Source of the DNA: Hydrogenophilales bacterium CG_4_10_14_3_um_filter_63_21
GTDB lineage: Bacteria > Pseudomonadota > Gammaproteobacteria > Burkholderiales > Thiobacillaceae
NCBI GenBank assembly: GCA_002784045.1
Contig: PFJX01000081.1
Span: 38,566 to 102,565 of the forward strand
DNA length: 64,000 nt
Direction: 5' to 3'
Shown here: positions 11,805 to 61,959 of the stretch, in pieces
Numbering within the stretch: the stretch's first letter is position 1
Layout of the letters: the number at the start of each line of letters is the position of its first letter
The notes under the pieces: generated by a model
The model's input: only the letters and a program-made list of their open reading frames with translations
The model's database searches: none
Told to the model about the DNA's origin: nothing
Position numbers and translations under genes: made by a program

Positions 11805-12543
11805 CCTGACGCCCCCGGTCATTTCGACCGACCCGAAGCTGAAGGCGCTGGCCGCTCTTTCCGAGCGGCTCTCGACGCTTGATTTGACCCCGGTGTTGAC
11901 CAACCTGGTCGATGCGGTGGAGGCCGACGTGCTGCCCTGTCTGGCCGACCAGTTCCACGTCATGGGCGATGAGGGCTGGTTGCTGGCCAACACCGATGAG
12001 CGCCGCCGCAAGCTGATCAAGCAGTCCATCGAGATTCACCGCCACAAGGGCACGGTGTGGGCGGTCAAGAGCGTGCTGGAAGCCTTGGCCGTTTCTGCCG
12101 AAGTGACCGAGTGGTGGCAGACCGTGCCGCGTGGTGCGCCGTACACCTTCGACCTGCTCGCCTGGGTGAATGACAACCTGAGTGACACCAGCGCGGTGCT
12201 GTCTCCGGAGACTTACCAGCGCCTGCGCCGCCTGGTGGATATGAACAAGCCCGTGCGCAGCCACTTCAGCTTCCGCGTTGGGGCACGTTTCGACGATGCC
12301 CTGGGAGCCGCTAACGCCAGCCAGGTAGCCGCCGTGGGGCGCTGGCCAGCCGATGCCGTTGCCGTACAGCCGCCCCCGGCGGCCAACCCCATCCAGGTCG
12401 CCGGGGCTGCCGATTCGCAGGCCCTGGGGCGCTGGACAGGTGTCCCGGCTGCCGTGCAGCCGCCGCCTGCCATCCATCTGTTGCGTGCGGCCTCTGCCGC
12501 CCGTTCCTTAACCGTGATTCGCATCTCAATGGAGGCTCGATGA
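11797..12543 (+). CDS. Tail protein I (P2 gpI-like) with C-terminal repeat
   Basis: 248 residues. Residues 1-165 show the gpI family pattern: LPCLADQFHVMGDEGWLLAN, RRKLIKQSIEIHRHKGTVWAVK (core KLIKQSIEIHRHKGTVWAVK), and EWWQ. It links wedges to tail fibres. The last ~60 residues hold an imperfect tandem repeat of about 26 residues, both units containing GRW.(..)AVQPPPA (VGRWPADAVAVQPPPA and LGRWTGVPAAVQPPPA). That repeat is unusual for the family and may be a flexible fibre-docking arm. ATG of the fibre gene overlaps its stop by 4 bp. Confidence 0.9.
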   Translation: MADLTPPVISTDPKLKALAALSERLSTLDLTPVLTNLVDAVEADVLPCLADQFHVMGDEGWLLANTDERRRKLIKQSIEIHRHKGTVWAVKSVLEALAVSAEVTEWWQTVPRGAPYTFDLLAWVNDNLSDTSAVLSPETYQRLRRLVDMNKPVRSHFSFRVGARFDDALGAANASQVAAVGRWPADAVAVQPPPAANPIQVAGAADSQALGRWTGVPAAVQPPPAIHLLRAASAARSLTVIRISMEAR

Positions 12544-14678
12544 GTACGCCTTTACAACCGGTCATCCTCGAAGCGGGGCTTGCCGCCGTCTGGCGGGCCA
12601 CCAATGACGGCGTGGCCGCCCAAATCACCCACATTGCCCTCGGCGATGCTGGGTATGTGCCGTTCCAGTCCCAGGTGGGCATGCGCTCCGAGCGCGTCCG
12701 CTACCCGGTGGCCGATGGCTCCCGCGTCTCACCCCGGCAAATCCACCTGACCGCCCTGGCCGATGGCGCTACCGAGTTCTGGGTGCGCGAGGCCGCCTTC
12801 ATCCTTTCGGACGGCACTGTGTTCGCCGTCTGGTCGCACCCGACCACGGCGCTGGCCTACAAATCCGCCAACGTCGATCTGCTGCTGGCTTATGACCTGG
12901 AACTGACTGCCGTCCCGGCGGGATCGGTGGTGGTGGAAAGCACCGGCGCCGGGCTGAATCTTGCCCTGTCTGCCGAACTGGCCGCGCTGGCTGCCGCTCA
13001 GGTTTCCGGCATGCTGCGCGACCTGCACCAGCAGGATCGCCTGACCGCCGTCGAGGGCCGGGCCGGTGGCCTGGAGCAAGCCCGCGACCAGATGCGGACT
13101 GATCTGGAGAAGGCCCGCGCCTACACCGCCAAGGTGGAAGCCGAAACCGACACCCTGGGCAAGGTCGCCGCCTGGCAGTCCGAATCCCAGGCCGAGGTGC
13201 TGCGCGGCATGGGGCAATCCGGCCTGTACCTGACGCGGGGCTACACCTTCGGCGGCAATGCGGCCTTCGACCGCCCCTTCGCCGAGAACTGGAACCCGGC
13301 AGGCATCCACAACCATCCCAACTATGACGGCATGCCCGGTACCGCCGAGTTTTCGACCATCGTCAACGGCTACTACCTGCGCACCCGCCACAACGACTAC
13401 CTGCTGCGCCGCCCGGCCAATGCCGGTTCGGCCTTCCTGGCCACCGAGGCGGTGTCCGCCCCGGCGCTGCCTGCCGCCGTGGCCAATGCGGGCGACGTGG
13501 CCGCGCAGATCGCCGCGATGCGTGGCCTGTTCGCCGACTACGCCGCCGGGCAGTGGCCTGCTGGTTTCGGCTGGACGCTCTCCTACGTCGAGTTCTGGTT
13601 CGAGCCGCTGTCCGCCGCCTTTGGCGACACCTTCGACAGCTTCCGCCACCAGCAGCGCATTTCCGACCTGGACAGCGCATTCCGCGAGGCCATGCGCTAC
13701 AACGCCGGGGGCTACAAGGATCGTTTCGAGAACGTCCCCTACGAGCCGCCCGTGGTGCGTTGGATCGAGAACGGCAAGCCGGTACTGGCCCGCCTGCGCT
13801 ACCGCATCGCCGCCGTCGATGTCTCGCACCTGGGCGACCTGCGGCCCCACATCGAGACTGTCGATGACCCGGCCTACCGGCAGGGCTTCGGACGCGACTC
13901 GGGGCGCTTCCGGGTGCTGGAGGGCGACAACGCCCCCGGCAAACTGGATGAGCTGATGGCCGCCATTCCCGGCCTGGACGGCGCTGGGGCCAACCTCGCC
14001 GAAACCTACCGGGAATACGGCATCGACACCACGATCCGCCGCTGGGACGGCGCGGCAGCGACCAACGCGGCCTACTACAACCGCTTCGCCCGCGCCTGGG
14101 CCGATGCCGCCAACCGCGATGCCTTCCACCGGGGCTTCAACGATCCGACCCTGTTCGCCGCGCTGACCACCCGTGGCGAGGTGCTGCCGATGGGCATGGA
14201 TGGCCGGGTGTATCGCTTCAGCTACGCCATCCCCTTCGAGCTGGTGCTGCGCACCCCGCTGGAAGGCTGGAATCCGCATGGCCTGCCCGAGGCCGGGAAC
14301 CTGAGCGGCGCTGGCAGCCAGGCCGACCCGTACAACGGCTGGCGGCGCGACGGCACCTTCTACCGCGTGCCGACCGCCTTCTATTCCGGCGGTGCGCCGG
14401 GCGATGCCGCCGACACCGGCATGGCCGATGCCTGGGTGAGCGACGGTGGCGGCACGGCCCGCAGCGTCAAGGGCAGCGGCATCTACGTCGGCCTACCGGA
14501 AATCGCCGGTATCGGCTCCATTCGGGTACGCCACCCGATCTACCCGGTTTTCCACGAAGGCAGCCATGCCTTTGCGGAATTGCAGGGGCTGCGCCGGGAG
14601 CAGGGGGAAACCCTCGCTTCTCTGGCCACCAGCCTCATCGACACCCAGCGTCGGCAAATCGCCCCGCTGACCGTTTAA
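12540..14678 (+). CDS. Tail fibre protein with P2 gpH-type N-terminus
   Basis: 712 residues. Residues 1-160 resemble the tail-collar fibre N-domain (AGLAAVWRATNDGVAAQITHIALGDAGY, core GVAAQITHIALGDAGY; EFWVREAAFILSDGTVFAVW), which anchors the fibre to the baseplate. A helical coiled-coil-like segment follows (about 175-225). The large C-terminal part (about 240-712) has no recognised family but is rich in Tyr, Trp, Asn, Asp and His, as expected for a receptor-contacting region. It is the main candidate for host recognition. A ribosome site AAAGGAG for the next gene follows its stop. Confidence 0.85.
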   Translation: MSTPLQPVILEAGLAAVWRATNDGVAAQITHIALGDAGYVPFQSQVGMRSERVRYPVADGSRVSPRQIHLTALADGATEFWVREAAFILSDGTVFAVWSHPTTALAYKSANVDLLLAYDLELTAVPAGSVVVESTGAGLNLALSAELAALAAAQVSGMLRDLHQQDRLTAVEGRAGGLEQARDQMRTDLEKARAYTAKVEAETDTLGKVAAWQSESQAEVLRGMGQSGLYLTRGYTFGGNAAFDRPFAENWNPAGIHNHPNYDGMPGTAEFSTIVNGYYLRTRHNDYLLRRPANAGSAFLATEAVSAPALPAAVANAGDVAAQIAAMRGLFADYAAGQWPAGFGWTLSYVEFWFEPLSAAFGDTFDSFRHQQRISDLDSAFREAMRYNAGGYKDRFENVPYEPPVVRWIENGKPVLARLRYRIAAVDVSHLGDLRPHIETVDDPAYRQGFGRDSGRFRVLEGDNAPGKLDELMAAIPGLDGAGANLAETYREYGIDTTIRRWDGAAATNAAYYNRFARAWADAANRDAFHRGFNDPTLFAALTTRGEVLPMGMDGRVYRFSYAIPFELVLRTPLEGWNPHGLPEAGNLSGAGSQADPYNGWRRDGTFYRVPTAFYSGGAPGDAADTGMADAWVSDGGGTARSVKGSGIYVGLPEIAGIGSIRVRHPIYPVFHEGSHAFAELQGLRREQGETLASLATSLIDTQRRQIAPLTV

Positions 14679-14704: not shown

Positions 14705-15397
14705 ATGAGTCTCGAAACTCAAATCGCCAACCTAGTGGCGGCGACCAACCAGCTTACCGGCGAGGTGAGCGGGAAGATGACCCAGATCGATCAGCGGGTC
14801 GAACAGAAGCGCGGCGAACTGGATGCCTGGCGATCTGCTGCTCGCCACGAGTTTGTGTTCCCGACGACGATGCGCTACGGAAACGTTAGCCACAACAAGG
14901 CCGAGTTGCTCGTGAATAACGCTGCCAACGTCAGTGCCGACCCGGCAAAAAGTAAGTGGGTTCGTTGCGGCATGAACCTCGACTCGAAATCACGCGGATA
15001 TTTCTCCGAGGGTTCTCTCGTTGTCGTCTGCCTTGATCGCGCCATTACAGCCCCTCCGGGTCACTATCAGAACCCACCTTACTCCAGTGATTGGAGCGCA
15101 ACGTATATGCAGTTCGTGATCGCGAACGAGTCTGCGACGTCCGAAGGTATCGATGCTCGGCTGGCCGCTTTGGGCATTACTCCTGAATTGGCCGGTGCTT
15201 GGTCGGATCACTCACATCGCGTGCGTACTACGGCTGTGAGCGTTCCCTCCCTGCATCCCTATTCGCAGCTATTTGTCCGATTCGTCAATCTGAGTTCCTA
15301 CGATCCTCAAGGTCGTGTGCCTCAGGACATTTTGAGCTTTGGCGGCGATGGCATTTTTGCCATCGACCATGTTGCGGCCTATCCGTTTTCCTTTTGA
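14705..15397 (+). CDS. Putative small tail-fibre or spike protein
   Basis: 230 residues; AAAGGAGTAACACCTC precedes ATG 14705. The first ~50 residues form a short predicted coiled coil (QIANLVAATNQLTGEVSGKM, then QIDQRVEQKRGELDAW), a trimerisation-like stalk; the rest looks beta-rich with many Tyr, Ser and Asn. The DNA is visibly less GC-rich than neighbouring tail genes, a common sign of recent exchange in host-range genes. No family is recognised. Position right after the main fibre gene supports a fibre-tip or second fibre role, by inference. Confidence 0.6.
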   Translation: MSLETQIANLVAATNQLTGEVSGKMTQIDQRVEQKRGELDAWRSAARHEFVFPTTMRYGNVSHNKAELLVNNAANVSADPAKSKWVRCGMNLDSKSRGYFSEGSLVVVCLDRAITAPPGHYQNPPYSSDWSATYMQFVIANESATSEGIDARLAALGITPELAGAWSDHSHRVRTTAVSVPSLHPYSQLFVRFVNLSSYDPQGRVPQDILSFGGDGIFAIDHVAAYPFSF

Positions 15398-15402
15398 GGT
15401 GC

Positions 15403-15669
15403 ATGATGAAAGAACAGACTGTTGACACGACGATTCCTCTTGACCCGGTTGCTATCAAAGAGTTGGCCGATTCCATTAATGCGGATGTAATCCGCCGAAT
15501 GTGCGGTGCCCACATCGAGCGCCACTACCCGACCTACAAGCAGCTCAACCTCATGCGCTCCGGCACCAAGGCCGAGCGGGACAAGTTGGACGCCTTCATC
15601 AACGCCTGCCGGGACTGGAGCAACGGCGAGAACCCCGATCCCGCCTCCCTTGAGGCCATTCAGCCGTGA
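15403..15669 (+). CDS. Small phage protein after the fibre genes
   Basis: 88 residues from ATG 15403 (or 15406), preceded by TTGAGG; an upstream reading frame exists but overlaps the previous gene. Mostly helical and charged, with DPVAIKELADSINADVIRRM and a C-terminus of KAERDKLDAFINACRDWSNG. It lies where Mu-like and P2-like phages place fibre-assembly chaperones, but no conserved chaperone motif is seen, so function stays open. Its stop overlaps the ATG of the next gene by 4 bp (GTGA context at 15666-15669), which suggests co-translation. Confidence 0.6.
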   Translation: MMKEQTVDTTIPLDPVAIKELADSINADVIRRMCGAHIERHYPTYKQLNLMRSGTKAERDKLDAFINACRDWSNGENPDPASLEAIQP

Positions 15670-16100
15670 AGTGGCCATACCTGACCCGTTACACCGATGA
15701 ACTCCCCGAGGGCGTCGGTGGCGAGGCGCGTGGCCCCCTGGTGCGTATCCGCACGAAATACCGGGATGACCAGGGTATCCACGCCCACGAGTACGAGCAT
15801 GTGCGCCAGTGGTGGACGGCGGGGCTGGTCGGGGCGGCGCTGATCGTGGTGTTCGCATTGGCCATCCACATGCCGCAAGTCGCCAGCCTGGCTGCGCTGG
15901 GCTTTCTGGCCCACCCGTTGGGTTACGCCCTCTGGCCACGCCACCGGCTGTGGTGCGAGGTGCAGGCGTATCGGGAACAGATGCGGCACCCCGACTGCAA
16001 CGGCGGCTTTTTGACGCTGGAGGATGCCGCCGAGCGGCTGGCCAATCCGCGTTATCGCTTGGGGATCACGGCAGCCGATGCACGTCGGCTGCTGGCCTGA
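15666..16100 (+). CDS. Small membrane protein with HExxH motif
   Basis: 144 residues. A HEYEHVRQWW stretch (HExxH, about residues 41-50) is followed by two hydrophobic segments (about 52-70 and 75-95, e.g. GLVGAALIVVFALAIHMPQV) and then WCEVQAYREQM, a Glu in the 'E-x-x-A-Y' setting that supplies the third zinc ligand in gluzincin-type peptidases. The C-terminal helix carries LTLEDAAERLANPRYRLG. Seen: the motif order. Inferred: a minimal membrane-linked zinc peptidase. It could act in lysis or on tail fibres. It could also be a motif by chance in a structural protein. Confidence 0.6.
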   Translation: MKWPYLTRYTDELPEGVGGEARGPLVRIRTKYRDDQGIHAHEYEHVRQWWTAGLVGAALIVVFALAIHMPQVASLAALGFLAHPLGYALWPRHRLWCEVQAYREQMRHPDCNGGFLTLEDAAERLANPRYRLGITAADARRLLA

Positions 16101-16241: not shown

Positions 16242-16276
16242 TAAGGCGGTTTTGACAATACGAAAATGTTTTGCAA

Positions 16277-16474
16277 ATGCTGCAAGAAGATATCCGCTGC
16301 GGCCAGTGCCAGAGAAAGCTGGCAGTGGGCCGCTACATCGAGATGGAAATCAAGTGCCCGCGCTGCGGCACCATGAATCACCTGAAGGCCACGAGCCTCA
16401 CGCCTGAACGCCATCGAGCGTCTGACTTTGGAGATGACGATGAGCGAAATCCCGCAACGAGTGATGCCGGGTGA
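16277..16474 (+). CDS. Com-like zinc-finger translational regulator
   Basis: 65 residues from ATG 16277 (a TTG at 16271 is an alternative). The core IRCGQCQRKLA, then IEMEIKCPRCGTMNHLKA, is the Mu Com family pattern: two CxxC pairs forming one zinc finger. In Mu, Com binds the mom mRNA and opens a stem that hides the mom start region. Here the gene overlaps the following methyltransferase by 35 bp, as com overlaps mom, and a stem covering the methyltransferase start is present (16409-16446). The inferred role is translational activation of the DNA modification gene. Confidence 0.85.
   Translation: MLQEDIRCGQCQRKLAVGRYIEMEIKCPRCGTMNHLKATSLTPERHRASDFGDDDERNPATSDAG
16409..16446 (+). promoter_or_regulatory. 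RNA stem masking the methyltransferase start (Com target candidate)
   Basis: CGCCATCG (16409-16416) can pair with CGATGAGCG (16438-16446) with one bulged base. The pairing buries the ATG at 16440-16442 in the stem and places GGAG (16430-16433) in the loop. This resembles the translation-inhibitor stem of Mu mom. Eight base pairs can occur by chance; function is inferred from context. Confidence 0.45.
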
Positions 16475-17294
16475 CATCTGGCATATTGGCAGGCACCGGT
16501 TGGCCTGCCTGGACGCAACCGACCCCTGGGGGGTTGCCAGGCTGTTCGGCAAGGAAACCTGGGACGTTCTGCTGACCAGCCCGCCGTATGCCCACCAGCG
16601 CACCTACGGCCTGCCCAACTTCGACTGGTCGCGGCTGATGGTCGGGGCGACAGAAGCCGCCCTGCGCCATGCGTCGGAGCGGTTCCATGCGCTGTTCAAT
16701 CTGGGCCTGGTGCATCGGCATGGCCGGGTGGATGAATACTGGCGAGCCTGGCTGATCGCCTGTCGGCGGCTGGGGCTGCCGCTCTACGGCTGGTATGTCT
16801 GGGACAAGTGCTTCGGCTTTCCTGGAAACCATCATGGCCGCCTCAGCCCCTCCCACGAGTTCATTTTCCACTTGGCCCGCAATCCGTGGTCACCCGCCAA
16901 GTGGCTCAAGAAGAAACACCTGGCAGTGCGCGGTGGCCAGGGTAGCCGGACTTGTGACGGTCGGCTGCGTCCCTGGTCAAGCCCCCAGGCTTGCGCCCAG
17001 CCGACGAAGATACCGGACAGCGTAATCCGCTTGCCCAGCGAGCGACGGCGTGGCATCCATACCCGGCACCATCCGGCAGTGTTCCCGGTCGATCTGCCAT
17101 TGTTCCTGCTGCGGACGTTCGGCCAAGCGGGTTGCGTGGTCTATGAGCCGTTCGCGGGCAGTGGCACCACCATCCTGGCCGCCGAGCAGCTTGGCATGAC
17201 GGTCAGGGCAGTCGAGATCAGCCCGCACTACTGCGACCTGATCCTGACCAGGGTCGAACAAGAAACGGGCATCCAGCCTGTGAAGGAGGTGTGA
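16440..17294 (+). CDS. Phage DNA methyltransferase, beta-class (TSPPY)
   Basis: 284 residues. ATG 16440 is chosen for GGAG 6 bp upstream; ATG 16434 and TTG 16428 are alternatives. Motif IV TSPPYA lies near residue 47 and motif I FAGSGTT near residue 240, the permuted beta-class order (IV, recognition region, I) of N4-cytosine and N6-adenine amino-methyltransferases. SPPY is compatible with either base. No restriction gene is nearby, so it is an orphan that probably protects phage DNA from host restriction, filling the role that Mom has in Mu. The Com-like gene and the stem over its start suggest late, Com-dependent translation. Confidence 0.88.
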   Translation: MSEIPQRVMPGDIWHIGRHRLACLDATDPWGVARLFGKETWDVLLTSPPYAHQRTYGLPNFDWSRLMVGATEAALRHASERFHALFNLGLVHRHGRVDEYWRAWLIACRRLGLPLYGWYVWDKCFGFPGNHHGRLSPSHEFIFHLARNPWSPAKWLKKKHLAVRGGQGSRTCDGRLRPWSSPQACAQPTKIPDSVIRLPSERRRGIHTRHHPAVFPVDLPLFLLRTFGQAGCVVYEPFAGSGTTILAAEQLGMTVRAVEISPHYCDLILTRVEQETGIQPVKEV

Positions 17295-17295
17295 C

Positions 17296-18060
17296 ATGGC
17301 CACACCTATCGTTCCCTGGATCGGCGGCAAGCGTCGGCTGGCCAAGCGGATTCTGCCCATCTTCCCGGCCCACGAATGCTATGTGGAGCCGTTCGCAGGC
17401 GGTGCCGCCCTGTTCTTCTTGAAGGATCAGTCCGATGTCGAGGTGCTCAATGACATCAACGGCGAGCTGGTGAATCTCTACCGGGTCGTGAAGCACCACC
17501 TGGAAGAGTTCGTCAGGCAATTCAAGTGGGCGCTGATCAGTCGGCAAATCTACGGCTGGCTCAAGCAGACACCGGAGGAAACGCTGACAGATATCCAGCG
17601 GGCAGCCAGGTTCTATTACCTCCAGAAGATGGCCTTCGGCGGCAAGGTGGCCAATCAGACCTTCGGCACGGCCACGACCTCGGCACCGCGCCTGAACCTC
17701 CTGCGGATCGAGGAGGAACTATCAGCCGCCCACCTGCGGCTGTCCCGTACCTACATCGAACACTTGCCCTGGGATGAGTGCATCCGGCGCTACGACCGGC
17801 CCCACAGCCTGTTTTACCTCGACCCGCCCTACTGGGGCACCGAGGGGTACGGCGTGGGCTTCGGCCTGGATCAATACGCCCGGATGGCGAGCCTGGCCAA
17901 GTCCATCAAGGGCAAGATGGTCATTTCGGTGAATGACATCCCGGAGATGCGCCAGGTGTTCGATGGACTGGAGATGGAGCGTCTGGAGATCAGCTACACC
18001 GTGGGCGGTGCTGGCCGCAGCAAGGCCGTCTCCGGGGAGCTACTGATCCGCAACTGGTGA
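17296..18060 (+). CDS. Dam-type DNA adenine methyltransferase (D12 class)
   Basis: 254 residues with strong AAGGAGGT before ATG 17296, one base after the previous stop. The order is PWIGGKRRLAKRI (SAM-binding N-end), FAGGAALFF (motif I), a recognition region with RFYYLQKMAFGGKV, and DPPYWGTEGYG (motif IV), diagnostic of alpha-class N6-adenine methyltransferases of the Dam/D12 family. The target site cannot be read from sequence. It is paired with a beta-class enzyme, so the phage may modify two sites. Its GC content and codon use match the neighbouring phage genes. It is the last phage gene. Confidence 0.92.
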   Translation: MATPIVPWIGGKRRLAKRILPIFPAHECYVEPFAGGAALFFLKDQSDVEVLNDINGELVNLYRVVKHHLEEFVRQFKWALISRQIYGWLKQTPEETLTDIQRAARFYYLQKMAFGGKVANQTFGTATTSAPRLNLLRIEEELSAAHLRLSRTYIEHLPWDECIRRYDRPHSLFYLDPPYWGTEGYGVGFGLDQYARMASLAKSIKGKMVISVNDIPEMRQVFDGLEMERLEISYTVGGAGRSKAVSGELLIRNW

Positions 18061-18100: not shown

Positions 18101-18145
18101 TGCGTCGATAGAATGAAAATGTGTTTGAGCCGGTACAAACGATCA

Positions 18146-18195
18146 GGCCGGTGATTTATCCTGAGATTTCGCGTGAGTTTTCGCGGCGCGCTTCA
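18146..18195. repeat. Mu-like right end / attR junction
   Basis: Read on the minus strand from 18195 inward, the sequence starts TGAAGCG, has CGCGAAAAC and ACGCGAAAT at spaced positions, and GATAAAT at positions 36-42. The phage Mu right end starts TGAAGCG, has two CGAAA units and GATAAAT at the same positions 36-42. About 25 of the first 42 bases agree by hand count. The terminal dinucleotide is CA on the plus strand, as needed for Mu-type ends. CCAGA (18196-18200) would be the 5-bp target duplication if the left end is intact. Confidence 0.8.
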
Positions 18196-18204
18196 CCAGA
18201 CACC

Positions 18205-21054
18205 ATGAACAAACCACACCGACGTTCATCACGTTCAAAACGCTCTTTCATGAAGCGTTTGGCGGGACAAAGACGCTTGCTCGCGCCGGCCGCCCTGGTC
18301 CTTCTCGCCGGTCTCGGAGGCGGCGCCTACTACCTGGCGCGTGGCCATGCCAGCCCGGAACAGCGCATCGCGAGCGCGAAACAACTGGAACTGGCTGGGG
18401 ACCGCAAAGGAGCCGCCATCGAGATCAAGAATGCCCTTCAGCAAACGCCAGACAATGGCGAGGCACGCTTCCTGCTCGGGCGTATCCATTACGCCAACAA
18501 CGATTTCGTTAACGCGGAAAAGGAACTGCGACAAGCAATGAGCAAGGGCTACCCAGCGCCGGAAGCGTCAATCCTGCTGGCACGTACCCTGCTGGCATTA
18601 CGCCAGCCCAAGAAAATTCTTGCTGAAATCAAGGTATTGCCGGGCGCCACCGCCGACGCCAATGCCGCGATTCTGGCGCTTCGTGCCCAGGCTTACGCCC
18701 TGTCGGGTGACAAAGCCAGCATGGAAAACAGCCTGCGCCAGGCGGACGGCCTGGTCGCTGAGCATCCCGACACCTTGGCATTCCGCGCCGGGCAGGCCTA
18801 CGCCAGCGGCCATGCCGAAGAAGCTCTGGCGGCGGTGGAGAAAGCCATCGCCAAGGCGGGCAAGCGCGTTGACCTGCACGTCATGAAGGCTGATCTGCTC
18901 CGCGCCTCGAAGCGTCGCGAGGAAGCATTCAAGGCTTACAGCAAGGCGCTGGCGCTCGATCCCAGCAATCTGCCTGCCCGGCTTGCTGTCGCTCAACATT
19001 ACCTAACGGCCGCGAACCTCGACCAGGCGCAGGCTGAACTGAAGACGTTGCAAGGCTATGCGCCGAATAACCTGATGGGGCGCTATCTCGAGGGTTTGAT
19101 CGAATTCCGGCGCAAAAACCTCGACGCGGCCAATAACAAATTGCAGGAAGTGCTACGCAGCGCACCGGACTTCGCCCCCGCCAATCTACTGGCGGGGGCC
19201 ATCGCCCTTAGCCAGGGCAAGCGTGAGAGCGCCATAAGCCACCTGAATCGGGTTCTCGAAGTCGCGCCCGACCATATTCTGGCGCGTAAATTGCTCGCTA
19301 CCGCCATGCTCGAATCCGGCCAGGCGAAGCGCGCGCGCGAATTGATCGCCAACATCAAGGACGATGATCACGATGTCCAATTGTTGTCCCTGCAAGGCAA
19401 CATTGCCTTGCGCCAGGGCTCGTATCAGGAGGCTCGCAACAAACTTGAAAAGGCCTCCGCGCTGGCGCCAGACAACACCGCGCTGACCCGCGAACTGGCG
19501 GCCAGCCGGCTGGCGAGCGGCGATGAGCGGGGCGCGATCGAAGCGCTCACCCAGTTGGCCGAAAAGGACACCACAACCCACCAGGCCGATGTGCTGCTGG
19601 TCATGACGCACGCCAAGGCCAAGCGCTATGACGAGGCGCTCAAGGTGGTGGCCGAACTTGAGCGCAGGCACCCTCGCCTCCCGCTGGCCGAAAACCTGCG
19701 CGGCACGATTTATCTATTACGCAATGATGCCGCTCTGGCGCGGAAGTCCTTCACCAAGGCTTTGGAAATCGATCCCGGGTATCTGCCGGCGGCAAGCAAT
19801 CTGGCGCGCCTCGACCTGGTCAACAAGGACATCAAATCAGCACGCGCGCGCTTCCAGAAAGTGCTCCAGAAAACTCCAAAAAACGCGCGTGCCCTCATCG
19901 CCCTGGCGCAACTGGCGGCACTCGAAAAGAACGAGCCCGAGTTTCTCAGCTTGCTCGAACAGGCCAAGAAAGCCGCGCCATCCGACGCAACCTCACGGCA
20001 AATGCTGGCGCGTTACTGGCTGAGCAAGCGTGATGCTGGAAAAGCGATGGTGGAAGCGCGCTCCGCCCTCGATGCCACCGGCAAACCGGAGTTCCTGGAC
20101 GCGATCGGCGCCGCCCAGTTGCTGCAGAATGACACGGCCAATGCGCTGGCGACCTACCAAAAATGGGCCAACAGCAACCCAAACAACCCCCTTGCGCATT
20201 ACCGGCTTGCGCTGGTCCAGAACCTGGCCAAGGATCGCCCGGGCGCGCTCAAGTCCCTGGACAAAGCCTTGGCGCTTTACCCAGGCTTTGCCGACGCCAG
20301 TATTCAGAAGGCGCTTCTGCTGGGTCTGGAAGGAAAGCAGGAGGAAGGCATCAAGCTCGCGCGTGCCCTTCAGGCCCGTACCCCCAACTCGGCTGCCGGC
20401 TATATGGCCGAGGCGGAGATTCTATTTGGCGCCAAGCGCTATCTCGATGCTGGCAAACTCTTCGCCAAGTCGGCGCAAATAGCCGGGCAGGGCCAACCTT
20501 TGGTGCGAGCCCAGCAGGCCTATGCCGCCGCCGGCCAGGCGGTTGAGGGCGAGAAACTGCTCGAGCAATGGCTCAAGGCCCATCCCAATGATCACGCCCT
20601 GCGCCATGTCCTGGCGCAGGCCCAACTCAACGGCAAGCGCCTGAAGGAAGCTGCCGACAACTACCGCATCTTGATCCGCGCGAATCCGCGTGATCTGGTG
20701 GCCTACAACAATCTGGCGTGGCTACTGGGTGAATTGAAGGATCCGCAAGCCCTGGCGATGTCCGAGCAAGCGTACAAACTGGCGCCCAAGAACGCCGCCG
20801 TTATCGACACGTATGGTTGGCAGCTCGTACTGGCAGCCCAGGCCAAACGCGCCATTCCCTACCTGCGGGAGGCACTCAACATGGTTCCCAACAGCCCTGA
20901 GATTCGCTGGCACCTTGCGACAGCTCTGGAGAAAGCGGGCGACAAGAACGGAGCGATAACCGAGCTGGATCGCTTGCTGTCCAGTCATATGGCCTTTCCC
21001 CAGGAATCGCAGGCACGCGTCTTATTGCAGCAATTGAGGAAGGCGGGAGGCTGA
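18205..21054 (+). CDS. prsT: PEP-CTERM system TPR protein PrsT, first copy
   Basis: 949 residues. ATG 18205 is chosen because the upstream open frame (from GTG 18121) is prophage end sequence. N-terminus: a basic stretch, one hydrophobic anchor (about 30-50, LLAPAALVLLAGLGGGAYYL), and no lipobox Cys. Then about 20 TPR units run to the end, the first being ASPEQRIASAKQLELAGDRK, of the type seen in PrsT (TIGR02917). PrsT proteins go with exosortase/PEP-CTERM sorting and polysaccharide export and act in the periplasm. The prophage end is 9 bp before the ATG, so the native promoter and ribosome site have been displaced; expression is doubtful. The first codons may also be lost. Confidence 0.85.
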   Translation: MNKPHRRSSRSKRSFMKRLAGQRRLLAPAALVLLAGLGGGAYYLARGHASPEQRIASAKQLELAGDRKGAAIEIKNALQQTPDNGEARFLLGRIHYANNDFVNAEKELRQAMSKGYPAPEASILLARTLLALRQPKKILAEIKVLPGATADANAAILALRAQAYALSGDKASMENSLRQADGLVAEHPDTLAFRAGQAYASGHAEEALAAVEKAIAKAGKRVDLHVMKADLLRASKRREEAFKAYSKALALDPSNLPARLAVAQHYLTAANLDQAQAELKTLQGYAPNNLMGRYLEGLIEFRRKNLDAANNKLQEVLRSAPDFAPANLLAGAIALSQGKRESAISHLNRVLEVAPDHILARKLLATAMLESGQAKRARELIANIKDDDHDVQLLSLQGNIALRQGSYQEARNKLEKASALAPDNTALTRELAASRLASGDERGAIEALTQLAEKDTTTHQADVLLVMTHAKAKRYDEALKVVAELERRHPRLPLAENLRGTIYLLRNDAALARKSFTKALEIDPGYLPAASNLARLDLVNKDIKSARARFQKVLQKTPKNARALIALAQLAALEKNEPEFLSLLEQAKKAAPSDATSRQMLARYWLSKRDAGKAMVEARSALDATGKPEFLDAIGAAQLLQNDTANALATYQKWANSNPNNPLAHYRLALVQNLAKDRPGALKSLDKALALYPGFADASIQKALLLGLEGKQEEGIKLARALQARTPNSAAGYMAEAEILFGAKRYLDAGKLFAKSAQIAGQGQPLVRAQQAYAAAGQAVEGEKLLEQWLKAHPNDHALRHVLAQAQLNGKRLKEAADNYRILIRANPRDLVAYNNLAWLLGELKDPQALAMSEQAYKLAPKNAAVIDTYGWQLVLAAQAKRAIPYLREALNMVPNSPEIRWHLATALEKAGDKNGAITELDRLLSSHMAFPQESQARVLLQQLRKAGG

Positions 21055-21143
21055 CCGATTTGCCAAACTGCTTTCCTGGATGATTGGTTTTCCCATTGAT
21101 ATTTGAGCATTTGAGCAAGAAATTCAGATAAAGGATTTTCCCG

Positions 21144-23930
21144 ATGCATCAACCTTCCAACTTGATTACGACTTTGGTCTTTACCGCTGCTGTCACGCTG
21201 ACCGCCTGTGGCGGCAAGAGCCCGGAAGCACATATCCAATCCGCCAAAGAAGCCATCCTGGCGGCGGATTACAAGGCTGCAACCATTGAGCTGAAGTCCA
21301 CGCTGGAAGCTGCACCTAGCAACGTAGAAGCGCGCCTGCTGCTAGGGCAGTCATTTCAGGCTCAGGAGCATTGGGCGAACAGCGAAAAGGAATTCAGAAA
21401 GGCTTTGGAACTCGGGGCTTCGCCCGAGCAAGTTCTGCCCTCCTTGGCCCGTGCACTGGTCCATCAAGGGAAATACCAACAGGCTCTCGACTTGGCGCTA
21501 CCCGACTACGGACTAGGTGCACAGGCGTTAGCCTCTGTAAAGGCTGAACGTGCCAATGCGTACATGGCGCTCGGCAAGCCTCAGGAAGCCGCTCAGGCTA
21601 TTGAAGAAGGCGAGAAATCACTGGCCGGGCTCGGTCCGACCGATATTTCAAAAGACCTGTATTTGGCCAAGGCGTATCTAGCGTTGATAAACAAGCAGCC
21701 TGGCGAGGCATTGTCGCTCCTGGATGCAATCCTGAAAAAGGACAGCAAATTTATCGAGGCCATGGATATGAAGGCCCAATTGCTGCTGGGAGACAAAAAG
21801 GTCGCTGAGGCATTCAAGGTCTATGAACAGATTGTGGCCACAAATCCGAAACATTTCAGTGCGCATCTTGCCATTGCCGGCCTGCACCAGAGAAAAGGGA
21901 ATCTTGATGCGGCGGACAAATCGGTCCAGGCCGCTGAAAAGATTGCGCCGGGTTCTCCTTTTGTTCTATACGCCCGAGCCAGCATTGAATTTAGCCGCGG
22001 CAATACCCGCAAGGCGAATGAAGCCATCCAGCAAGTTCTAAAGATAAGACCGGACCATCTGGCCAGCCGGCTGATCAGAGCTACCACCAGCCTTGAACTG
22101 GGCAATTACGAACAAAGCCAGAAGGACGCCGAATACTTCCTGGCTCAGCAGCCAGGCAATGCCTTTGCCGCCAGGGTACTGGCGGCAAACCAGTTGAAAT
22201 CGAATAACTTCCAGGGAGCCTTGAATACGCTCACGCCTCTGCTCAAGGCCAATGCGAATGACGTGGCACTGCTGGCCCTGCTTGGCGAGGCGCACCTCAA
22301 GGCACGTGACTACAACAAGGCTATGGAATATCTCGACCGGGCATCCAAATTGGACCCAAAGAATGCCTATATCAAGAGCCAGCAGGCTACCGGCCTGCTG
22401 TATCAAGGAGAAACCGAACAGGCCATCACCATGCTGGAACGGGCCGCCAATCTGAGCGAAAAGCCGGGGCAGGCGGACATAACCTTGATTCTGCTGAAAC
22501 TGAGTAAACAAAATTACGACCAAGCACTGCAGGCCATCGAGGTTTTCGAGAAAAAGTTGCCGAACAATCCGGTCACGCACAGCCTGCGCGCTTCCGCATA
22601 CCTCGGTAAGAAGGACCCCGCCTCCGCGCGCAAATCATTGGGAAAGGCACTGGCCGCCGATCCCAAGTTCTTTCCTGCCGCCGCCACCCTGGCCACCCTG
22701 GACTTGCAGGACAAGAACCCCCAAGCAGCACGTAGCCGCTTCGAATCCATACTGGCGCATGACCAAGCCAATGTATCGGCCATATTGGCCTTGGCCGAGT
22801 TGGCACAAGCCGGCAAGCACGATGAAGAGTATCTCAATTGGCTGATGAAGGCGGTCAAGACGAATAGCAAGCTCGTGCAGCCACACCAGTTGCTGATCAG
22901 CTATTACCTGTCCAAGCAGCAAAATGCCAAGGCTCTGGCGCAAGCGAGAGACGCGGTTCAACAGCATCCTGAAAGTCCCGTTGCCCTCAAACTGCTCGGC
23001 GCCACCCAACTTGCCACGGGCGACACCAATGCCGCACTGGTTACCTTCAAGCAGATGGTAGTGAAGGCGCCTGATTCCTCGGACACCTATTACCGTCTGG
23101 CAATGGCTCAAGTCGCGGCCAAAGACAGGCGATCAGCGCGTATTAGTCTGCAAAAAGCGATTCACTTGCAGCCAGGCTTCATCCAGGCTCAGGACGCACT
23201 GATTCGGCTTGAAATGTCAGAAGGAAAATCGGGGGCGGCCCTGGCGGTAACCAAACAAATGCAAATGGAAAGCCCCAAAGCCACTCTCGGCTTCGAGCGA
23301 GAGGGCGACATACACCTGGCCCAAAAACGTCATTCCCTAGCCATCCATGCCTACCAACGGGCTATTGACCTGGGGGCGGGCACCACCGGCCAAATCAAGT
23401 TGCTTCATGCACTTAATCTCTCAGGTGACACACGAGGTGCTGAACAACGCTTGACGACCTGGATCAAGCAGCATCCCACAGATATCCTCGCGCGCAATTT
23501 CGCCGCGGAGTTTTACACGCAGGCTGGGCGCGACCAGGAAGCTATCATCCAATACGAGGCAGTACAGCGTTTAGCTCCACCCGAAGCCGCCCTTCTCAAC
23601 AATCTTGCCTTGCTCTACCAGCGTATGAATGACAAGCGGGCGCTGGGAACAGCCGAACAGGCCCTCAAGCTTGCTCCCGATCAACCACCGATGCAGGATA
23701 CCCTGGGCTGGATTCTGCTGGAACAGGGGCAGATTCCGCGTGCTTTGGAACTCCTGCACAGCGCGGCGAGTAAAGCACCCAAGTCAGCAACGCTACGTTA
23801 CCACTATGCAGTTGCCCTGGCCCGCTCCGGCAAGAAGGCGGAAGCGAAGAAGGAGCTGGAAGCCGCCATCGCCAGTGGCCAGAAAATACGTGAACTGGAA
23901 GCTGCCAAGGCCCTACTCAAAAGCCTGTGA
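21144..23930 (+). CDS. prsT: PEP-CTERM system TPR lipoprotein PrsT, second copy
   Basis: 928 residues. A signal peptide with lipobox LTACGGKS (Cys about residue 23) predicts a lipoprotein, the usual PrsT form. The body is a long TPR array (SPEAHIQSAKEAILAADYKA at the start; DTLGWILLEQGQIPRALELL near the end), the same architecture as the upstream copy. The two are tandem paralogues 89 bp apart; base composition here is lower in GC. A short AAAGGA precedes the ATG. It likely scaffolds export or sorting in the periplasm or at the outer membrane, by family knowledge. Exosortase itself is not in the window. Confidence 0.88.
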   Translation: MHQPSNLITTLVFTAAVTLTACGGKSPEAHIQSAKEAILAADYKAATIELKSTLEAAPSNVEARLLLGQSFQAQEHWANSEKEFRKALELGASPEQVLPSLARALVHQGKYQQALDLALPDYGLGAQALASVKAERANAYMALGKPQEAAQAIEEGEKSLAGLGPTDISKDLYLAKAYLALINKQPGEALSLLDAILKKDSKFIEAMDMKAQLLLGDKKVAEAFKVYEQIVATNPKHFSAHLAIAGLHQRKGNLDAADKSVQAAEKIAPGSPFVLYARASIEFSRGNTRKANEAIQQVLKIRPDHLASRLIRATTSLELGNYEQSQKDAEYFLAQQPGNAFAARVLAANQLKSNNFQGALNTLTPLLKANANDVALLALLGEAHLKARDYNKAMEYLDRASKLDPKNAYIKSQQATGLLYQGETEQAITMLERAANLSEKPGQADITLILLKLSKQNYDQALQAIEVFEKKLPNNPVTHSLRASAYLGKKDPASARKSLGKALAADPKFFPAAATLATLDLQDKNPQAARSRFESILAHDQANVSAILALAELAQAGKHDEEYLNWLMKAVKTNSKLVQPHQLLISYYLSKQQNAKALAQARDAVQQHPESPVALKLLGATQLATGDTNAALVTFKQMVVKAPDSSDTYYRLAMAQVAAKDRRSARISLQKAIHLQPGFIQAQDALIRLEMSEGKSGAALAVTKQMQMESPKATLGFEREGDIHLAQKRHSLAIHAYQRAIDLGAGTTGQIKLLHALNLSGDTRGAEQRLTTWIKQHPTDILARNFAAEFYTQAGRDQEAIIQYEAVQRLAPPEAALLNNLALLYQRMNDKRALGTAEQALKLAPDQPPMQDTLGWILLEQGQIPRALELLHSAASKAPKSATLRYHYAVALARSGKKAEAKKELEAAIASGQKIRELEAAKALLKSL

Positions 23931-60597: not shown

Positions 60598-61959
60598 ATG
60601 TCGCGCCTTGTTTCATCACCTTTTCCCCGCTCCCTCGAAGACGCTCTGTCACGCCGCGATTTCCTCTGGCTCATGGGGGTGGCTGGCTCCGCCTTGCTGT
60701 TGCCGCTCTCCGGCTGCGCGGTTGACCCCGTAACCGGGCAGAAGACCTTGGTGGGGATGTCCGAAGACCAGGAAAAAAGCCTCGACAAAAGCCAGTCGCC
60801 CAGCCAGTTTTCTTCCGACCTGGGCGCGGTCCAGGATGCCGGCCTGAATGGCTACATGCAGGATGTCGGCACGACGCTGTGGAGCAAATCACATCGCCCG
60901 CAGATGCCTTACTCGGCGCGCGTGCTCAATGCCAATTACGTCAATGCCTATACTTTCCCCGGCGGCAGCATGGGGGTCACCCGCGGGATCATGCTGGAGA
61001 TGCAGAACGAGGACGAACTCGCCGCGCTGATGGGGCATGAGATCGGCCATGTGAATGCACGCCACGCGGCAGAACGCGCCGGCAAGGAAATGCTCACCAA
61101 TGTGGCGTTGGTCGTGGCCAACGTGGCCATCGCCAGTTCAGAAAATGGCCAGCAATACCTGCCCCTGCTGCAACCCCTGAGCCAGATCGGTGCCTCCGCT
61201 TTGCTCGCCAAATACAGCCGCGACAACGAGCGCGAGGCGGACAGCCTGGGGATGGATTACATGGTGGCGGGCGACTACAACCCGGACGGCATGGTCGGTC
61301 TGATGAACATGCTGCGCGGCGAAGCCCAGCAAAAACCCAGCCTGCTGGAAACCATGTTCGCCTCGCACCCGATGCGCGAGGAGCGCTATCAAACCGCCCG
61401 CCGTACCGCCGAACAGAAATACACCAGCCAGCGCGGCCGCCCGCCGAAGCGCGAACGCTACCTGGACAACACCGCCGGCCTGCGCCGCCTTCAGCCGACG
61501 GTGGAGGCCTGCCAGAAGGGCGAGGCGCTGATGGCGAAGAAGGAGTTGCCGCAGGCGGAAGGACAGTTCGGCCTGGCCCTGCGCCATACGCCCAGCGATT
61601 ACGCCGCGAACGTGTTGATGGCCAAAGCCCTGATGGCGCAGAAGAAAAGCCAGGAAGCCGACAGCTACCTGGCTACCGCCAAATCGATCTATCCCGGCGA
61701 GGCCCAGGCCGTGCATCTGTCCGGCCTCGCCAAGCTTGCGTTGCGCCAACCGGAAGCCGCGCTGGCCGAATTCCATGCCTACGACAAGCTGCTGCCGGGC
61801 AATCCCACCACGCAATTCTTCATGGGAGCAGCCAGCGAAAACATGGGCAGGAAGCGTGACGCGGCCAACTTCTACTACCGCTATCTACAGAGCGGCGCCC
61901 AGGGCGGAGAAGCCCAGTTCGCCGTGGCCCGCCTCAAAGATTGGAAGGTGATCAAGTAA
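60598..61959 (+). CDS. M48 metalloprotease with TPR tail (BepA-like)
   Basis: 453 residues from ATG 60598 (an upstream in-frame TTG is less likely). Basic head, then a hydrophobic core and lipobox LLPLSGCAVDP, so probably a lipoprotein. Zinc site HEIGHVNARH with downstream NEREADSLG (third ligand Glu). The last 140 residues are TPR-like (EGQFGLALRHTPSDYAANVL). BepA-type proteases check outer-membrane protein assembly. psiE follows 22 bp later. Confidence 0.93.
   Translation: MSRLVSSPFPRSLEDALSRRDFLWLMGVAGSALLLPLSGCAVDPVTGQKTLVGMSEDQEKSLDKSQSPSQFSSDLGAVQDAGLNGYMQDVGTTLWSKSHRPQMPYSARVLNANYVNAYTFPGGSMGVTRGIMLEMQNEDELAALMGHEIGHVNARHAAERAGKEMLTNVALVVANVAIASSENGQQYLPLLQPLSQIGASALLAKYSRDNEREADSLGMDYMVAGDYNPDGMVGLMNMLRGEAQQKPSLLETMFASHPMREERYQTARRTAEQKYTSQRGRPPKRERYLDNTAGLRRLQPTVEACQKGEALMAKKELPQAEGQFGLALRHTPSDYAANVLMAKALMAQKKSQEADSYLATAKSIYPGEAQAVHLSGLAKLALRQPEAALAEFHAYDKLLPGNPTTQFFMGAASENMGRKRDAANFYYRYLQSGAQGGEAQFAVARLKDWKVIK

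Follow-up and report, generated by a model that had tools for sequence, protein, structure and literature searches.

Among described zinc peptidases, the M56 family of BlaR1/MecR1 (Peptidase_M56) is the one that the gene considered here appears to approach most closely. In BlaR1, H201, H205 and E242 are the zinc ligands of a cytosol-facing site, and residues 200-250 include a membrane re-entrant loop (PMC9834060). A second point of reference is offered by the mini-zincins Acel_2062 and mini-Glu-zincin, single-domain proteins with a minimum of structural features (PMC3890501). Our subject is a 144-aa open reading frame at 15666-16100 on the plus strand of a 64,000-nucleotide stretch of Hydrogenophilales DNA (contig PFJX01000081.1; the whole stretch is called the window below). 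On balance, sequence comparison and structure modelling suggest that this mini-gluzincin is probably an active, minimal gluzincin with a cytosol-facing site and a membrane hairpin, made as a late accessory enzyme of a phage. The family has not been described in any publication that we found.

The gene and its prophage

The reading frame runs without an internal stop from a GTG start, and a GAGG lies about 11 bases 5' of the GTG. This start and the stop of the 87-88-aa ORF directly 5' of it (15403..15669, +) have four bases in common (GTGA). In two other loci, L017 and L020, a 75-aa homologue of this small ORF precedes the peptidase gene with the same overlap. Further 5' on the plus strand lie the gene of a 230-aa phrog_8748-like protein (14705..15397) and that of a 712-aa tail-collar fibre protein (12540..14678); the initial annotation had placed the gene in a tail-fibre module, and the fibre gene bears this out. 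Downstream, on the same strand, follow a Com-like zinc-ribbon protein, named by eye (16271..16474, with the ATG at 16277 as the likely start), and, at the right end of the phage, two DNA methylases, N6_N4_Mtase and then D12/Dam (16428..18060).

By eye, the window from position 1 to ~18100 appears to lie inside a Mu/BcepMu-like transposable prophage of ~39.5 kb (G000:C161 ~17.2-56.7 kb). The prophage would be flanked, again with genes named by eye, by a PrsK/PrsR-like kinase-regulator pair (L067 13663-17173) and by two large TPR-repeat genes (window 18121-23930) that resemble a PEP-CTERM locus; a search for its target-site duplication gave no convincing 5-base repeat with terminal inverted repeats. 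The host has an M48 peptidase gene of its own, at ~60847-61407 of the window (G000:C161:99412-99972), which is unrelated to the mini-gluzincin.

The window protein falls into phrog_13761 of PHROGs v4 (E 7.2e-25, residues 3-143 on 5-145 of 149), a family that carries no function label and whose library description contains neither a division into soluble and hairpin forms nor the M56 kinship discussed below. Relatives occur in cultured phages (Rheinheimera phages Barba5S, 8S, 15A and 26A, Alteromonas phages PT15-A5 and AD45-P1 to P4, Riemerella phages, EBPR siphovirus 1), in Vibrio and Alteromonas plasmids such as the phage-plasmid p0908, and in several tens of metagenomic viral loci. Cellular genomes rarely have the gene: the single case among 120 sampled genomes of the phylum is the window's own. 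A further family, phrog_15610 of Riemerella phages, labelled 'protease', has the ligands in common and gives weak matches to some soluble members. We note that in this gene OQ791282.1 (Shigella phage Henu10) matches Riemerella phages at the same identity, so that its host may be mislabelled. In p0908-type Vibrio plasmids (L011, L013, L014) the next gene encodes a 216-244-aa protein with three predicted membrane spans, a partner different from that of the tail-linked members.

Conserved site, predicted fold and two forms

The order of elements from which the initial annotation had started, HEYEH, two hydrophobic spans and CEVQAYR within 144 residues, is present. HEYEH occupies residues 41-45 (15786..15800) and would provide two of the zinc ligands as well as the catalytic Glu; hydropathy places the spans at ~50-67 and ~72-88, separated by a loop free of charged residues (codons for residues 50-89, 15813..15932); and Glu98 (15957..15959), the proposed third ligand, stands within CEVQAYREQ. 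The motif around this third ligand is ExxAY, followed by Q, versus the classical ExxxD. H41, E42, H45, E98 and Q105 are the top-conserved positions in an alignment of homologues mostly only 23-60% identical, and Q48, Y102 and Y130 are, like Q105, near-invariant. Conservation of those five residues at such divergence is more than chance, and Y130 and Q105 may be regarded as candidates for active-site support.

Since seeding with HExxH returns HExxH by construction, conservation was controlled by retrieval in two directions, with seeds from the C-terminal half versus HExxH seeds. The C-terminal pattern retrieved HExxH in 55 of 56 distinct loci, and the HExxH pattern retrieved Glu98 in 34 of 34 aligned members. 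Thus the residues H, E, H and E, whose conservation the initial annotation had proposed to check, are kept, and the homologues lacking HExxH with the rest intact, which it had named as the refuting case, did not turn up. The sole homologue outside the pattern (L172, ~2470-2900) reads HEIQGH, with a one-residue insertion that might be either a natural loss or a sequencing error.

AlphaFold models the window protein with high confidence (pLDDT 96.1, pTM 0.89), with helices at 36-66, 72-89 and 91-105, and a soluble homologue of 114 aa (L040) equally so (pLDDT 96.6, pTM 0.88); the order of elements is the same in both models: strands, HExxH helix, Glu helix and two C-terminal helices. These two proteins represent two forms of the family, one of ~110 aa without spans and one with the hairpin. 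Over 92 rows, 76 of them different, the distance between the first His and the Glu falls into two classes, 29-32 in 45 of the 46 short forms (22 in the remaining one), which have no hydrophobic insert, and 44-62 in the other 46. A tree of the core columns needs five changes of form, four of them forced by supported branches; it rests on 97 columns with many forks open, and one of the changes involves a long-branched Riemerella row whose placement is unsure. As built from these sequences, the tree shows that the form switched repeatedly, and it does not give the direction. The initial annotation's reading of a minimal membrane protein with its ligands in gluzincin order therefore stands: the ligands are conserved, the fold is confidently predicted and the core matches M56 by profile, and the membrane part has proved optional, not a constant of the family.

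The two spans may then be viewed as an optional hairpin at the point of BlaR1's membrane re-entrant loop. Over 42 hairpin forms, the loop that joins the two spans has a mean of 0.07 K+R, versus ~5 on each flank. Because a loop so poor in K+R lies between K+R-rich flanks, the positive-inside rule predicts that both protein ends and the active site are cytosolic. The position of the re-entrant loop in BlaR1 leads to the same expectation, since an enzyme with its hairpin at that point would be anchored to the inner side of the cytoplasmic membrane, its active site exposed to the cytosol.

What the enzyme might do

The peptidase reading of the 144-aa protein is well supported by the conserved ligands and catalytic Glu, the structure models and the profile match to M56 taken together. 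In the mechanism that we consider, H41, H45 and E98 would hold one zinc, E42 would activate a water, and the substrate might pair, by analogy with BlaR1, with the strand ahead of the HExxH helix (residues 25-28, 15738..15749), resulting in zinc-dependent cleavage of a protein in the cytosol or at the inner leaflet. Expression would be late, because the gene is presumably translated with the distal tail genes. Within this best explanation, the role that we find most attractive, with a likelihood somewhat short of even, is that of an accessory enzyme whose target, a protein of the host or of an incoming phage, would be cut in the cytosol or at the inner leaflet; superinfection exclusion falls within this role.

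The neighbourhood of the gene across relatives bears on this choice. An upstream ORF lies on the same strand in 61 of 73 loci, overlapping by 4 bases in 15 and by 1 base in 7, and large fibre-like ORFs end directly at the peptidase gene in some loci. Upstream neighbours belong mainly to tail spike, tail fibre and fibre-assembly families, and downstream families are led by endolysins, followed by DNA methylases and Rz-like spanins; here the order of neighbours reflects a mechanical choice of ORFs, and the tallies count families, not loci. Mu-like relatives carry other genes in the same slot, lysis-like ones in Acidovorax phage Aval and unassigned ones in Curvibacter phage TJ1 and Shewanella phage MuM16-1. 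Because its content varies in this way, the slot behind the fibres is an accessory site.

Two further loci deserve mention as observations in their own right. In Pseudomonas phage Bise (L230 2975-4731), also a Mu-like relative, the same slot is taken by a reverse transcriptase together with a four-helix-bundle protein, which look like a diversity-generating retroelement. L027 (131-1832) has, immediately 5' of the peptidase gene, an Avd-like gene and a reverse transcriptase carrying YVDD, whose frame begins with a stretch resembling a template repeat.

In many unrelated phages, and in both forms of the family, the gene is tightly coupled to genes for tail fibres and for their assembly, which raises the alternative that the enzyme is a fibre-processing or assembly quality-control peptidase, cutting or clearing fibre, spike or chaperone polypeptides of the same operon; a cytosolic active site, as predicted, would suit such substrates, since fibres assemble in the cytosol. 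However, not all homologues have tail genes as neighbours: in Alteromonas phage PT15-A5 the gene adjoins HTH genes, in AD45-P4 it lies among unassigned genes, and in p0908-type plasmids amid a recombinase and unassigned genes. The post-fibre slot is variable in Mu-like relatives, and a membrane anchor would be unneeded for the task. We consider fibre processing unlikely, and we give the accessory role a modest preference over it because of the homologues found away from tail genes and the variability of the slot.

Lysis was among the roles that the initial annotation had envisaged, and a lysis accessory could act on a holin, a spanin or another inner-membrane lysis component to set the timing of lysis. 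Endolysins and Rz-like spanins are often found downstream, in Riemerella phage PT03 a holin gene overlaps one that encodes the same ligands, and the gene of EBPR siphovirus 1 lies two genes before a lysozyme; yet any gene placed behind the tail fibres is likely to have lysis genes close by. In the window's own prophage the lysis cassette, assigned by eye as a holin-like gene, an SLT endolysin and an Rz-like gene, lies elsewhere and on the minus strand (L068 3125-4603), and still the mini-gluzincin gene stands by the fibres. With these genes at hand, lysis there would have no need of the mini-gluzincin, and the predicted cytosolic site would be out of reach of peptidoglycan or the outer membrane. 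These points speak against a lysis role in this phage, and a lysis accessory in general seems to us distinctly improbable.

That the protein is a zinc-binding scaffold or an inactive relative without peptidase activity, as its missing ExxxD aspartate and unusually small size might suggest, is very improbable given that the catalytic Glu42, which is no ligand, varies as little as the ligands do, and Tyr130 and Gln105 are invariant too.

Kinship with M56 and comparison with known systems

The kinship of the accessory enzyme that we favour was sought by profile. Aligned to Peptidase_M56 by hhalign, the family reaches 91% (A2), 88% with the soluble members alone and 93% with 87 members, at E about 1e-6 to 4e-7, versus at most 42% in 30 column shuffles that kept HExxH. 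The alignment between the two families pairs the strand, HExxH, the (N/H)PL helix and the Glu. The shared distance of 14 from the Pro to the Glu is not independent evidence here, because the M56 loci, from a phylum-wide search for PF05569, were picked with a regular expression that requires a Pro 14 residues before the Glu.

Searches with general models returned little. The window protein matches no Pfam model at its cut-off and has no NCBIfam match of weight; none of 34 members matches PF05569 at E up to 1, its gathering score not being reached, and close relatives give sub-threshold matches to it only, several at the same places as M48 proteins. Against the PDB, Foldseek finds nothing significant by fold, BlaR1 being listed for both models at E 1.0 and 8.7, and sequence comparison gives chance matches only, that to 2kpn ending in a His tag. 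The eCIS core model PF13699 is weakly matched by 2 of 34 members (best E 0.1), and by the AD45-P4 homologue at E 0.0058, below the cut-off; no member of the 34 matches a PADLOC anti-phage defence model at E up to 0.1.

M48 (HtpX/Ste24), which has the same anatomy on paper, with HExxH, two hydrophobic regions and a Glu, was suggested by that order and is rejected at 0.5-4% by hhalign, a test in which M56 and M48 find each other at 97%. M78 (ImmA/IrrE) and SprT reach at most 0.8%; their controls comprise only 8 and 5 sequences and carry less weight than that of M48.

What appears new is the existence of two forms with 4-5 switches between them, the profile kinship to the M56 core and the predicted cytosol-facing site. 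An unannotated family beside the tail fibres of many phages can be read as a zinc peptidase that is probably active and whose active site is open to experiment, and the post-fibre accessory slot gains a defined candidate enzyme for host takeover, superinfection exclusion or fibre maturation. Through its kinship to the BlaR1/MecR1 core, the family hints at the smallest unit with which that protease could work, and the soluble versions of ~110 aa would be a far easier object of study than full-length BlaR1. More tentatively, one may imagine that phages carry a stripped-down regulated-proteolysis enzyme of BlaR1 type, its hairpin gained or lost, which is made late and cuts one particular protein of the cytosol or inner membrane, belonging to the host or to a rival phage. 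Should that speculative reading hold, the family would be among the smallest M56-like cores.

Compared with the known systems, the family resembles M56/BlaR1 in that the strand, the HExxH helix, the (N/H)PL helix and the zinc Glu fall into the same register when aligned. As in BlaR1, there is an insertion between HExxH and the Glu, a re-entrant loop there and a hairpin in the window protein, and the site faces the cytosol, as predicted for the window protein. Unlike in BlaR1, Y102 stands at the place of D246 (ExxxD) and W50 at that of D210, the Asp five after the second His; because these two places are so occupied, we describe the window protein as M56-like and not as a member of M56. The four-helix membrane scaffold and the sensor domain of M56 are absent, with two spans in the hairpin form and none in the short form, and the proteins are of 110-144 aa, with soluble members among them. 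With the mini-zincins the family shares the format of a single-domain, minimal zincin, and no match to them was found in sequence or fold comparison; Acel_2062 differs by a motif of the Asp-zincin type, HExxHxxGxxD, and the phage context and the membrane hairpin are new relative to the mini-zincins.
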